A DNA stretch of 64,000 bases from Caulobacter sp. SLTY (GTDB taxonomy: Bacteria; Pseudomonadota; Alphaproteobacteria; Caulobacterales; Caulobacteraceae). Below the pieces are notes generated by a model. The model saw only the letters and a program-made list of their open reading frames with translations, was not told the DNA's origin and did no database searches. The stretch spans positions 62,001 through 126,000 of the forward strand of contig NZ_JAAALA010000005.1 of the NCBI RefSeq assembly GCF_009905535.1, given 5' to 3'. The position numbers and the translations under genes are program-made. Numbering within the stretch: the first letter of the stretch is position 1; each line of letters opens with the position of its first letter. Below are positions 36,181-40,237 of this stretch, piece after piece.

Positions 36181-36232
36181 CGCACGTGGGGGAACCCGGC
36201 CCAGCCTGATGCAAAATCAGGGAAACGCCGTC

Positions 36233-37027
36233 ATGACCCACCCCACCGTCGAACTGCTCGAACACCCCCTCTCGCCCTATGCCCAGAAGGTGAAGATCGC
36301 TCTGGCCGAAAAGGGCGTGCCCTTCGAGGCCAAGATCCCCGGCGCCATCGGCTCGGGCCAGGTCACCGACGAATTCGCCCGCGCCAACCCGCGCGGCGAG
36401 GTGCCGGTGCTCTATGTCGAGGGTCAGGCCATCTTCGACTCCACCATCATCCTGGAGTTCATCGAGGACCGCTTCCCCAGCCCGCCCCTGCTGCCCGCCA
36501 GCGCCGCCGACCGCGCCCGCGTCCGGATGATCGAGGATCTGGTCGACACCCACTACGAGGCCATCACCTGGGGCCTGTCGGAAATCGCCAACTTCAAGCG
36601 CGCCACCGGCGACCAGGCCACCGCGATGCAGGCCAAGGCCGGCGAGGAGCTGGCCCAACTCCACGCCTGGCTGGAGGCCCAGCTCGGCGACCGCGACTGG
36701 TTCAACGGCGAGGCCTTCGGCTGGGGCGACCTCTGCGTGGCGCCCTTCGTGGCCGGCGCCATCGGCTTCGGCTTCCCGCCCACCGGCAAGCTGTCGGCCT
36801 GGTTCGCCCGCGTCGCCGCCCGCCCGTCGGTGGCCACATCCCTCAACCAGGCCCGAGAGATGGCCGCCGCCATGGCCGGCGTCGCCCAGGTGGTCGAGGC
36901 GGGCCTGTTCAAGCGCCAGTACCGCGACCACCGCCTGGAATGGATGATCCGCGCCGGCGGCCTGTCCGTCGTCCAGGCCGGGCTGGAGCGGAACAACATC
37001 CGCTTCAACGCCGCGCCAAGAGCCTGA
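36233..37027 (+). CDS. Glutathione S-transferase family protein
   Basis: 264 residues. N-terminal thioredoxin-like domain (ELLEHPLSPYAQKVKIALAE, GEVPVLY, FDSTIILEFIEDRF) and an all-helical C-terminal domain (WFNGEAFGWGDLCVAPF). The last about 45 residues extend past the usual GST end. ATG 36233 has AGGGAAA nine bases upstream; ATG 36209 is eight codons longer. Cytosolic glutathione-dependent enzyme or chaperone-like GST of unknown substrate. Confidence 0.87.
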   Translation: MTHPTVELLEHPLSPYAQKVKIALAEKGVPFEAKIPGAIGSGQVTDEFARANPRGEVPVLYVEGQAIFDSTIILEFIEDRFPSPPLLPASAADRARVRMIEDLVDTHYEAITWGLSEIANFKRATGDQATAMQAKAGEELAQLHAWLEAQLGDRDWFNGEAFGWGDLCVAPFVAGAIGFGFPPTGKLSAWFARVAARPSVATSLNQAREMAAAMAGVAQVVEAGLFKRQYRDHRLEWMIRAGGLSVVQAGLERNNIRFNAAPRA

Positions 37028-37053
37028 CCCCCACACCTCCGACGCGCGAGAAT

Positions 37054-37064
37054 TGTGCTATAAC
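37054..37064 (+). promoter_or_regulatory. Extended -10 promoter candidate for the nuclease-protease gene
   Basis: TGTGCTATAAC, with TATAAC at 37059-37064 preceded by TG-C, is the only sigma70-like AT-rich box in this gap. A clear -35 is not visible. It lies about 99 bases before the gene start. Confidence 0.35.
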
Positions 37065-37089
37065 GCCGTTCGCTGTGTGCGAGCGCGCG

Positions 37090-37105
37090 CGTGATGCTTG
37101 TCACA
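37090..37105. promoter_or_regulatory. CRP/FNR-like dyad in the leader of the nuclease-protease gene
   Basis: CGTGATGCTTGTCACA matches TGTGA-N6-TCACA except for the first base and sits in an inverted repeat GTGATG/CATCAC (37091-37109). It lies 58 bases before the start codon and downstream of the putative -10, a position suited to repression. Confidence 0.35.
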
Positions 37106-37162
37106 TCACCGACGCCTGCGACCGGTCAAAGTCACGATCGACGCTGGTTCCAAGGGGGCTCC

Positions 37163-38980
37163 ATGACCGACTTCACCACCATCCATCCGCTCAGCGCGGC
37201 GATGGCCCACCACCTCGACATCCACCTGTGGCGCGGGCCGCCCCAGAACCTCAAGGCCGACCGGCCCGTGCAGATCCTGGTCAACCAGGGCTACGTCGTC
37301 GGCTTTTCGCCCACCACTCTTCAGCCGGCCTGGTCGGCCTATTCGGTGGCCCATGCCACCGACGCGGTCGATTTCAACCGGCCGCTCCACTACTATGCCG
37401 ACGCCCGCCTCGACCCCGCCCTGCGGCTCAGCAACCGCACCTTCGGCAAGATCGGCGGCATCCCCCTCAACGTCGGCCACATGACGCCTAACGAGGTCAT
37501 CAACCGCCAGTTCGGACGTTTGGCGCAGGCCGAGACCTTCCTGATGTCGAACATGAGCCCGCAGTATGGCTCGCTCAACAGCGGCGTCTGGCTGAAACTC
37601 GAAGACGCCATCCGCGAGGTCCAGACCCAGCCTCTGCAGGGTCAGAACAAGGGCTTTGTCTGGGTCACCGTCGGCCCGGTCTTCGGCGAAGACCCCGAGT
37701 ACATCTCCCGCGATGGCGGCAAGCGCGTGCCGGTGCCCGAGGCCTATTTCGCCATCGTGGTTGAGCCGAAGAACTACCCCTACGATACGCCGGGCAGCGT
37801 CCATATCGACTGCTTCATCATCCCGCAGACCGCGCCGCGCGACACCGACCCTGACGCCTATCCCTCCACCTTGGAGGAGATCGAGGCGCGGACCGGCCTC
37901 AATTTCTTCCACGGCTGGGCCCGGACCTACACCCTTGGCCAGAAGCAGGATGAGGCGGAGGGTGTGATTCATCAGGCCTCCGAGAGCCGGCTTCGACAAG
38001 CGATCGAAACCCGTCGGGCGGCGTGGAGCCTGCAGCTGGTCCCGGAAACGCCGGCCGCCCAGCCGACGGCCAGCACCATCGACGGCCTGATCGCCGACCT
38101 GAAGGCGGAAGCCGACCGCAGCAGCCAGCAGATTCGCGATGAAGCGCGCCAGACCCGTCCCGAGGAGAAGGCCCGCGCGGCGGCCCTGCAGCACACCCTG
38201 ACCTGGCTGATGCGCGCCAAGGAGGTCGCCGGCCAGGACCAGCCTGCCCCCGCCGCGCCGGCCGACCAGGCGAGCTCGAACATCATCACCTACAAGATCG
38301 AAGAGGACATCGGCGACAGGCTGAAGAACGGCGCCCGCGCCGCCTGCAACTTCTGGAACCGCTTCGTCCTGCCGCGCTATTCGATCGTCATCCGCCTGGG
38401 CCTGTTCACCAGCATCGGCAACACCATCGCTCGCGCCTACAAGCCCTATGAGAAGGACGGCGTGCGCTACGGCAAGGTCGAGTTCAATACCGCCTTCCTG
38501 CTCAGATACTCGGCCGACGAGATCGCCGGCACCATCATTCACGAGATCGGCCACACCCTGGGCTTTGGCTGGGACAGCTGGGACCAGCTGTTCAACCCCG
38601 GAACCGGCAGGTTCCTGGAGGGCGCCATCGGTCGCATTGCCGCTCTGGGGCTGATGGAGGTCGAGCGCGACGGCGGTCCGGGCACGGCCCTGTCACACTG
38701 GGACGAGGCGCTGTTCGATCGCGAACTGATGACCGGCTACAAGGATGTCGGCGGCGAGCACGTCCTGCCGATCACCATCGATGTGATGGAGGCCTTGGGC
38801 CACGAGGTCGCCGAGCGGCTGGCGCGGCAGACCAGCCTGGAAGAGCTGCTCCAAGGCATCGCCAGCATGGTGTTCTCGCGGCAGGAGGACGTGCGCCAGA
38901 TCGATCTCGACTACTTCGTGGAAACCGAACTCCGGGAAAAAGTGCCCCACGAACCGATACCGGATCAGACGTCAGGCTGA
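37163..38980 (+). CDS. Fusion: DNA/RNA non-specific endonuclease domain + HExxH zinc metalloprotease domain
   Basis: 605 residues, no signal peptide. Residues about 15-285 resemble the NUC1 (EndoG/Serratia nuclease) fold: VGHMTPN holds the putative general base H106 (normal DRGH reads NVGH), FLMSNMSPQYGSLNSGVW holds the likely metal-binding N139, then VWVTVGPVF and the family C-terminal mark TGLNFFHGW. Residues about 300-385 are a charged, Ala/Gln-rich linker. Residues about 390-575 form a metalloprotease-like domain: HEIGH (H460, E461, H464), then GFGWDS, and SHWDE (H512) followed by FDRELMTGY, the pattern of leishmanolysin-like M8 metzincins. AAGGGGG precedes ATG 37163. No immunity-like neighbour. 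Possibly a protease-controlled nuclease effector; function is inferred. Confidence 0.8.
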   Translation: MTDFTTIHPLSAAMAHHLDIHLWRGPPQNLKADRPVQILVNQGYVVGFSPTTLQPAWSAYSVAHATDAVDFNRPLHYYADARLDPALRLSNRTFGKIGGIPLNVGHMTPNEVINRQFGRLAQAETFLMSNMSPQYGSLNSGVWLKLEDAIREVQTQPLQGQNKGFVWVTVGPVFGEDPEYISRDGGKRVPVPEAYFAIVVEPKNYPYDTPGSVHIDCFIIPQTAPRDTDPDAYPSTLEEIEARTGLNFFHGWARTYTLGQKQDEAEGVIHQASESRLRQAIETRRAAWSLQLVPETPAAQPTASTIDGLIADLKAEADRSSQQIRDEARQTRPEEKARAAALQHTLTWLMRAKEVAGQDQPAPAAPADQASSNIITYKIEEDIGDRLKNGARAACNFWNRFVLPRYSIVIRLGLFTSIGNTIARAYKPYEKDGVRYGKVEFNTAFLLRYSADEIAGTIIHEIGHTLGFGWDSWDQLFNPGTGRFLEGAIGRIAALGLMEVERDGGPGTALSHWDEALFDRELMTGYKDVGGEHVLPITIDVMEALGHEVAERLARQTSLEELLQGIASMVFSRQEDVRQIDLDYFVETELREKVPHEPIPDQTSG

Positions 38981-40237
38981 CTCCTCGGCCTCGGCCGGCG
39001 GCTGCCGCTCTCCCTTCGCCAGCATGGTGGTCACCCCCATGTCGGCGGTGACGTTGCCCAGGGTGCGGAAGATGTCGGGCACGACCTCGACCGCCAGCAG
39101 GATGGGCAGCAGGTCGATCGGTGCGCCCAGCGCGATACAGATCGGCGCCACGCTGGCGAAGAAGCTGATCTGGCCGGGCAGGCCGACCGAGCCGACAGAG
39201 ACGGCGAAGGCCACCAACACGGCGCCGGCAATCTGCGGCAGGCCCGGCTCGACCCCATAGAGGCTGGCCACGAACAGGGCGGCCGCCAGGTTGCCGACCG
39301 GGCTGGTAGCGCGGAACACCGCCACGGCAAGCGGAAGCACCAGGCCGGTGATCCGGTCCGGAACGCCCAGGTTGTCCCGCGTCCGCTCCAGCATCGCCGG
39401 CAGGCTGGCGAGCGACGACTGGGTGGAGAAGGCCACCGCCAGCACCGGCCCTGAGGCCCGCAGAAACTCGCCAAACCGCGCCGAGCGGGTGAGGGCGACA
39501 ACGAGCATCATGATCACCGTGATCCCGGCGATGATCGTTGAGACCATAACGATGTACTGCAACAGGGTGGCGGCGCTGGCGATGCCCGTCCGCAGGCCCA
39601 CGCTGAGCGACAGGGCGAACACCCCGACGGGCGCCACCCACAGCACCCAGCGGACGATGGTCAGCATGGTCTCGGCGATGGCCCGGAACACCGTCAGCAA
39701 CGGCTGTTTCAACTCTTCGGGCAGGCGGCTGGCGGCGAAGCCGAAGAACACCCCGAACACCACCAGCGGCAGGATGGCGTCCTCCACCGCCGCCTTCAGG
39801 GCGTTCGCCGGGGCGAGGCCCTTGAGGAAATCGGCGAAGGTCGAGGCCTGGGCGGCCGCCGCGTCCGGCGCCTGGGCGCTGGCCCGCAACGCCGCGCCGG
39901 CGACCTCGTCGATGGGCCAGATGGCCAGCCAGCCCTGGGTGGCCAGGACAGCGTAGATGGAAAACACCGTCAGGAAGATGGCGAACAGGAAGATGGCCCT
40001 CGCCGCCAGCTTGCCGGTCGCCGCTGCGTCGGCCACTGAGGCGATGCCCAGCACGAGCAGGGTGAAGACCAGCGGCACGATGGTCATCCGCAGGGCGTTG
40101 AGCCACAGCGACCCCAGCGCCTCGACGATCGCCGCCCCATCCTGAACCGCCGGCGGCGCCCACAGCTGCAATCCCGCCCCGACCAGCAGCCCCAGCACCA
40201 GGGCGATCAGCACGCGGACAGCGAGGGAGCGAAGCAT
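38972..40237 (-). CDS. Dicarboxylate:cation symporter family protein, atypical
   Basis: 421 residues, inner-membrane DAACS-family transporter with N-terminal helix SLAVRVLIALVLGLLVGAGL and several more spans. The usual SSSS loop reads STQSSLASLPAML and the NMDGT-like cation motif is replaced by VFRATSPVGN, so coupling ion and substrate may differ from GltP/DctA. It is unrelated in detail to the symporter at 20266. Overlaps the nuclease-protease gene end by nine bases (convergent). Start ATG 40237. Confidence 0.82.
   Translation of the reverse strand: MLRSLAVRVLIALVLGLLVGAGLQLWAPPAVQDGAAIVEALGSLWLNALRMTIVPLVFTLLVLGIASVADAAATGKLAARAIFLFAIFLTVFSIYAVLATQGWLAIWPIDEVAGAALRASAQAPDAAAAQASTFADFLKGLAPANALKAAVEDAILPLVVFGVFFGFAASRLPEELKQPLLTVFRAIAETMLTIVRWVLWVAPVGVFALSLSVGLRTGIASAATLLQYIVMVSTIIAGITVIMMLVVALTRSARFGEFLRASGPVLAVAFSTQSSLASLPAMLERTRDNLGVPDRITGLVLPLAVAVFRATSPVGNLAAALFVASLYGVEPGLPQIAGAVLVAFAVSVGSVGLPGQISFFASVAPICIALGAPIDLLPILLAVEVVPDIFRTLGNVTADMGVTTMLAKGERQPPAEAEESA

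Follow-up and report, generated by a model that had tools for sequence, protein, structure and literature searches.

Known couplings of nucleases and proteases

Coupling of a nuclease to a protease is a known theme. The proteases described are mostly trypsin-like or caspases, and it is the combination with an M8 metalloprotease that we did not find described. In the available part of Kaur et al. 2020 (eLife; PMC7159879), "System 3" couples NucA (Endonuclease NS) to trypsin-like peptidases, sometimes with subtilisin, mainly in alphaproteobacteria, and its nuclease is predicted to be deployed by a proteolytic cascade. Some of these proteases have transmembrane segments, EAD1 or STAND partners, and the rare metallopeptidase effectors mentioned in the same excerpts belong to other (VMAP/vWA) systems. 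According to the accessible text on the LypABC CARD-NLR-like system of Caulobacter crescentus (PMC13236601), LypC combines protease and endonuclease domains (the latter with catalytic H471 and N505) in ~660 aa; the protease is required for lysis, and nuclease-site mutations have no effect on it. The sections available of Tuck et al. 2025 (PMC12799240) describe gated MBL-fold pro-nucleases activated by trypsin-like or caspase proteases in Hachiman, AVAST, and Canu, with such pairs also in Lamassu and DRT; they are mobile, their two genes co-evolve, and further nuclease homologues adjoin proteases of other, diverse families.

The gene studied here lies in a 64,000-nucleotide stretch of DNA from Caulobacter sp. 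SLTY (hereafter the window). Like System 3, in which the two are often one polypeptide, it joins a NucA-type nuclease to a peptidase; unlike System 3 as given in the available text, the peptidase is an M8 metalloprotease, the nuclease is N-terminal, and no partner gene is visible. LypC also holds protease and endonuclease in one protein, but by the accessible text (PMC13236601) its trypsin-like domain is N-terminal and its nuclease C-terminal, and it is encoded with an NLR-like ATPase. In two other members of the window's genus, LypC-like fusions are encoded within LypABC-like gene sets (L140:28-6859 and L141:1853-6933) in which the trypsin-nuclease fusion directly follows a gene for a ~1030-aa AAA ATPase, with a further trypsin gene in L140; both fusions keep the DRGH motif. 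In contrast to these two loci, adjacent NLR-like ATPase and protease genes are absent among the seven window neighbors scanned. With the gated pro-nucleases the window protein shares the pairing of nuclease and protease, its control being presumed, but in the available part of PMC12799240 the nuclease is of MBL fold and separately encoded, and the protease is either trypsin-like (fused to a core defense gene) or a caspase. The window nuclease is an Endonuclease_NS domain, not an MBL-fold nuclease with gating insertions. Bacterial leishmanolysin-like M8 proteins (L004, L005, and L101) have HExxH, an HW third ligand, and an ELMTG Met-turn as in the window protein, but they are separate proteins in other contexts, without a nuclease.

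An earlier sequence-only reading of the window knew of no described protein with this pairing. Nuclease-protease fusions as such are described, in System 3 and LypC, but for the M8 pairing our searches of open-licence PMC papers listed no description of an Endonuclease_NS-M8 protein, and the part of PMC8195603 that is available has nothing bearing on one.

The gene and its product

The nuclease-metalloprotease fusion gene (37163..38980, + strand) encodes 605 aa, as supported by ORF translation, Pfam, and full-length homologues. All residues named in the sequence-only reading (H106, N139, H460, E461, H464, and H512) are found in the translation, and the two-domain fusion that it proposed is recovered by Pfam as Endonuclease_NS plus Peptidase_M8, both over the cut-off. 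With an alternative GTG start, at 37091, the protein would be 24 residues longer, but homologue N termini fall at or near M1 of the 605-aa form; the purine-rich AAGGGGG lies immediately 5′ of 37163. Promoter and terminator scans at the gene gave no excess over shuffles.

The hydropathy scan agrees with the earlier statement that the protein lacks a signal peptide: neither a signal peptide nor a transmembrane segment is evident (best 19-residue hydropathy, 0.72 within residues 1-60 and 1.26 in the whole protein). Pfam matches to SprT-like, M57, Zincin_1, Astacin, and FUSC all fall under their own cut-offs, no trypsin domain is among the Pfam matches at E ≤ 1, and no sensor domain is visible by Pfam. 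NCBIfam gives only a sub-threshold metalloprotease match, and PADLOC gives none.

A conserved full-length family

A whole-length search, in which the 8000 candidates with the most shared words were scored, returned 226 proteins at E ≤ 0.001, query included. Query coverage is 98%-100% in the best 120 of the 226 (query included), and the other 119 of these are 56%-74% identical to the window protein. Precomputed Pfam labels, counted from the list, give both domains in 105 of the 120 and the nuclease only in 15. Sources among the matches listed include Novosphingobium, Roseibium, Hoeflea, Leisingera, Marinobacterium, Roseateles, and Aquimarina, as well as Acidobacteria and Bacteroidota MAGs.

We aligned 119 of the best 120, one 772-aa protein having been removed by a length filter (570-640). 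R73, V104, G105, H106, N139, and E147 in the N-terminal half and C395, H460, E461, H464, G467, H512, W513, and M523 in the protease unit are invariant in all 119 fused proteins, and R151 is present in 118. Mean pairwise identity is 0.75 in the nuclease, 0.69 in the M8 part, 0.54 in a segment between the domains (residues 300-355), and 0.72 in the N-terminal leader; two junctions are variable (0.36 at residues 255-290 and 0.20 at 356-372). Pairwise identities in one half track those in the other (Mantel test on the identity matrices, Spearman rho = 0.745; 0 of 300 permutations as high, maximum 0.118), so the halves appear to have been largely inherited together; rho is 0.72 once P0001-P0021 are left out. 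A single known family over the whole length, which would have spoken against the sequence-only reading, is not present in Pfam, NCBIfam, or PADLOC; a full-length family does exist but is uncatalogued. Judged by its sequences, the fusion is a conserved unit of this family, with strongly conserved predicted active sites.

The nuclease half

Residues 37-254 (37271..37924, +) form an Endonuclease_NS domain of the beta-beta-alpha metal type (PF01223, E = 6.4e-27; 95.1 bits against a curated cut-off of 23). The solved catalytic relatives closest in sequence are Serratia nuclease (4e-12), EXOG, and EndoG, and a PDB profile search supports this half; ENPP chains match too. The equivalent of the DRGH motif is NVGH (residues 103-106; 37469..37480, +), with N103-V104-G105-H106 aligned to D-R-G-H of Serratia nuclease. 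Downstream, the N139...E147...R151 block (NSGVWLKLEDAIR; 37577..37615, +) aligns with the Serratia block N-x-G-x-W-x-x-L-E-x-x-x-R. By its role in Serratia nuclease, we take H106 to be the general base, and we assume for Endonuclease_NS sites in general a catalytic His and an Mg-binding Asn, plus Glu and Arg.

Because all 119 fused proteins in the alignment have V instead of R, the departure from the classical DRGH is a trait of the family and no defect of the window copy. The sequence-only reading was correct that the motif reads NVGH, but its suggestion of an altered or regulated nuclease is weakened: xVGH is also common in nuclease relatives that stand alone, with no protease attached (89 of the 107 examined), so the motif need not signal regulation. 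By sequence, the xVGH nucleases of the fused proteins are best placed as a divergent branch of the Endonuclease_NS domain family.

The metalloprotease half

The M8-type unit spans residues 373-596 (38279..38950, +; PF01457, E = 2e-7). Peptidase_M8 scores 30.5 bits against a cut-off of 21, in two stretches, and PF01457 matches all 23 proteins scanned (22 relatives and the window protein) at E ≤ 0.01. The zinc site HEIGH (residues 460-464; 38540..38554, +) is followed at a distance by the third ligand H512, W513, and the Met-turn M523 (38696..38731, +), a spacing of M8 type as previously proposed. The PDB sequence profile search with this half returned no M8 structure, its rows at E ≤ 1 matching a helical segment to unrelated proteins; our assignment to the M8/metzincin type, fold included, is thus a prediction from sequence.

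The conserved segment between the domains (residues 300-355; 38060..38227, +) is probably helical and seems to be part of the protease unit, since standalone M8 proteins start with it. At the level of a guess, it could serve as a pro-segment of the protease and the invariant C395 as a cysteine switch.

Standalone relatives and origin of the fusion

We searched for each half within a length window that shut out proteins as long as the fusion; some proteins among the matches listed are fragments on short contigs. The M8 unit with its segment matched 451 proteins at E ≤ 0.001, including standalone forms of ~280 aa, and 81 of the best 120 of the 451 pass a filter for a start at about the 300-355 segment. 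The nuclease half matched 176 proteins, with standalone forms also of ~280 aa; among the best 120 of the 176, 107 are about full length with the motif, which is VGH in 89, RGH in 17, and LGH in one.

Trees were built by a quick method with SH-aLRT support only, each from a subsample of the fused proteins (35 or 25). The nuclease tree places the fused proteins inside a 36-row set (35 fused, support 99%) whose lone intruder, P0350, looks by eye like a frameshifted fragment. The first M8 tree is less simple: the fused label requires seven changes, the set with 96% support comprises 35 fused and seven other rows, and the smallest set holding all fused proteins has 41 rows, six of them other rows. 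By eye, at least five of these six resemble truncated fused genes; P0210 may be a real short protein. When the M8 tree is limited to full standalone forms, one branch separates fused from standalone proteins (98%), and in its nuclease counterpart two changes of the fused label are needed. A single fusion event would be the simplest reading of these trees, multiple fusions also being possible, and the R-to-V change seems to predate the fusion.

One orphan xVGH nuclease (G1632; L103:9064-9921) comes from the family of the Roseovarius genome that carries L004. It has no M8 neighbor, and its genome gives no second match at 1e-30, so a cell can carry this type of nuclease in the absence of the protease. 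We also considered a two-gene operon of split halves as the general rule and rejected it, on thin evidence: this nuclease, the one readable context, lacks an M8 neighbor, and by eye no large contig is common to both standalone halves among the matches listed.

Distribution and horizontal spread

The fusion gene is rare and patchy in the taxa sampled. Among the 61 nearest relatives, six genomes match at 1e-3, and only the window's genome does so at full length. With at most three candidates scored per genome, the fusion was found in 1 of 398 genomes of the order, 1 of 385 of the class, and 2 of 398 of the phylum (the window's genome among the matches), and in 1 of 397 of the family around G1109; the genus around G1109 gave 1 of 9, and G1109 itself is among the matches in both. 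In the family of the L004 genome, the one match in 169 is a nuclease-only protein, and in that of an Enhydrobacter MAG, the one match in 65 is the MAG itself.

Identities conflict with taxonomy: the copy in Marinobacterium shares 82% identity with that of a Rhodospirillaceae MAG and 76% with that of Hoeflea, and the Aquimarina copy is 68% identical to the Marinobacterium copy. Horizontal transfer of the gene between distant bacteria, across phyla, is therefore likely on these sequence comparisons. Carriage as cargo of mobile elements was considered and rejected: none of 117 matching plasmid records and none of seven matching phages covers 80% of the query, and none of the 80 loci retained from 118 confirmed in IMG/VR has a full-length copy, their partial matches being to the nuclease only.

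The locus in the window and other contexts

The gene is flanked on the left by a glutathione S-transferase gene in conserved synteny (GST1; 36209..37027, +; Pfam GST_N_3/GST_C) and on the right by a sodium:dicarboxylate symporter gene (38972..40237, −; Pfam SDF), with which its 3′ end overlaps by 9 bp. Of 61 genomes in the genus, 20 have the symporter, the window's included, and we read its surroundings in 15 others. Six of the 15 have GST1-symporter synteny, in each case with a second GST gene (GST2) between and without any match to the fusion gene. The remaining nine have no GST1. Blastn flank homology to the six syntenic relatives stops at 37017-37022 and resumes at 38983-39015, varying by relative, which delimits a segment without counterpart (37018..38982) in the place of GST2. 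As GST2 was not found in the window and is present in 6 of 6 syntenic relatives, the comparison indicates a single-gene swap, fusion gene in and GST2 out. The fusion gene has a GC3 of 0.88, versus 0.92-0.93 for the three neighbors measured.

The seven neighbors scanned encode an alpha/beta hydrolase, a pyridine nucleotide oxidoreductase, the GST, the symporter, a prolyl oligopeptidase, an ORF without family, and a UDP-GlcNAc 2-epimerase. None resembles an immunity gene, as the sequence-only reading had noted, and none is a trypsin, NLR-like ATPase/protease, secretion, or DNA-repair gene. In another genome of the genus (G019; L121:3972-6291), a TIR protein (~554 aa) followed by pNTSase1, a predicted nucleotide synthetase, is encoded between GST2 and the symporter. 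The GST2-symporter space may be an integration-prone place.

The surroundings of the fused gene were readable in two further cases. In Sphingomonas ursincola (L002), a 443-aa ORF with no Pfam match and, by eye, an export-signal-like start lies directly upstream, and TIR, TPR-S, Crp-like, CsgG/DUF4384, and caspase-PDZ genes surround the fusion gene (L002:3803-20904). In the Enhydrobacter MAG, the gene is at a contig edge. No neighbor common to these two contexts and the window was seen.

Proposed role and alternatives

By its sequence, the protein combines two complete catalytic sites, co-inherited halves, insertion as one gene without a visible partner, and no export signal. We tentatively read it as a single-gene intracellular conflict or suicide module whose nuclease is gated by, or acts with, the tethered protease, a reading that we consider possible but short of probable. 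An EndoG/Serratia-type nuclease would be held harmless in the cell, with the tethered M8-type zinc protease controlling it or acting with it; a trigger (e.g., phage infection or damage) would switch the protease on; the active protease would cut the variable junctions (255-290 or 356-372) or a partner; and the freed nuclease would destroy nucleic acid. We infer the cytosolic location, gating, junction cleavage, trigger, target, and protective or conflict role of the fusion; proteolytic gating of the fused nuclease is plausible. In favor of this reading are the invariance of both active sites, the co-inheritance of the halves, and the variable junctions between conserved domains; the rare and patchy occurrence with identities against taxonomy, the single-gene replacement, and the lack of a signal peptide; the TIR and pNTSase1 pair between the GST genes and the symporter in G019; and the precedents in the available parts of PMC12799240 (Hachiman, AVAST, and Canu) and PMC7159879 (System 3). 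Against it count the standalone occurrence of both halves and of the orphan nuclease, the lack of a PADLOC match and of a sensor domain visible by Pfam, and the metabolic, defense-free set of window neighbors scanned. The dispensability of the LypC nuclease site for lysis, as given in the accessible part of PMC13236601, likewise argues that a protease-tethered nuclease need not be a killer. We consider the fuller version doubtful: an immune or suicide system made of one gene, whose metzincin-type protease would gate an intrinsically slowed EndoG-like nuclease in cis, with 605 residues serving as sensor, activator, and executioner, and which would have spread horizontally over several phyla. 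Protease-activated nucleases are a newly recognized theme of bacterial immunity, and the cases shown so far use proteases of trypsin-like or caspase type and several partner genes; if the conflict reading is true, a self-contained metalloprotease version would mean that the principle arose again with unrelated enzymes. With one gene and strongly conserved active sites, cis-proteolytic control of a nuclease is directly testable with two point mutants.

The strongest rival, rather unlikely in our judgment, is a degrader of nucleoprotein, in which the tethered protease strips and the nuclease cuts DNA or RNA that has protein on it (protein-carrying phage genomes, DNA-protein crosslinks), both enzymes being active without gating and the R-to-V change keeping the nuclease tolerably slow. 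Sites invariant in all 119 proteins would fit this, and xVGH in 89 of 107 standalone relatives is as expected of an intrinsically tamed nuclease; the SprT-like match points the same way but is under its cut-off, M8 being the better match. An M8 unit on a viral contig with RecT- and RecE/PDDEXK-like ORFs (by eye, see below) also agrees with it, whereas the absence of a DNA-repair gene among the seven neighbors scanned does not, and the standalone halves imply that tethering is not needed. An effector that reaches other cells through signal-peptide-independent secretion or lysis, its nuclease being set free there by the protease, would account for the missing signal peptide, the lack of a visible immunity gene, and the patchy distribution. 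We think it improbable, as no delivery domain exceeds its Pfam cut-off, no secretion gene is among the seven neighbors scanned, and the conserved N-terminal leader (mean identity 0.72) speaks against a modular trafficking region.

It is less probable still that the protein is an ordinary scavenging or housekeeping hydrolase, fused for convenience and acting on post-lysis debris. Both halves do occur alone in many bacteria, and the gene stands alone beside metabolic genes, but a gene that is rare in the sampled taxa yet conserved and co-inherited across phyla is unlike a housekeeping gene, and there is no export signal. Membership in a TIR/TPR-S/caspase nucleotide-signaling module, as the S. 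ursincola neighborhood might suggest (TIR, TPR-S, caspase, and CsgG/DUF4384 genes within ~10 kb of the fusion gene), is very improbable. The TIR and pNTSase1 genes at the corresponding place in G019 add to it, but in the window's genus 30 of 51 genomes, the window's own among them, encode a homologue of the S. ursincola TIR protein; with TIR homologues this common the link is weak, which also counts against the conflict reading, and after this base-rate control we rejected the TIR/TPR-S link as the main reading. Each of the two contexts is known from one genome, the scanned window neighbors include no TIR, TPR-S, caspase, or CsgG gene, and the two small neighbors of the TIR genes have no detectable homology to each other.

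M8 units on a viral contig and a plasmid

A standalone M8 unit of 294 aa is encoded on a 42.7-kb IMG/VR contig (L142:244-1128). It is 50% identical to the standalone M8 protein P0134, adjoins an uncharacterized 422-aa protein, and lies near ORFs that by eye resemble RecT and a RecE/PDDEXK-type exonuclease. Plasmid pKN1 of Sphingobium yanoikuyae carries an unannotated partial match to the M8 unit (L099:8001-8388), in two pieces at 46% identity; genes for cyanophycin synthetase and cyanophycinase lie downstream of it.
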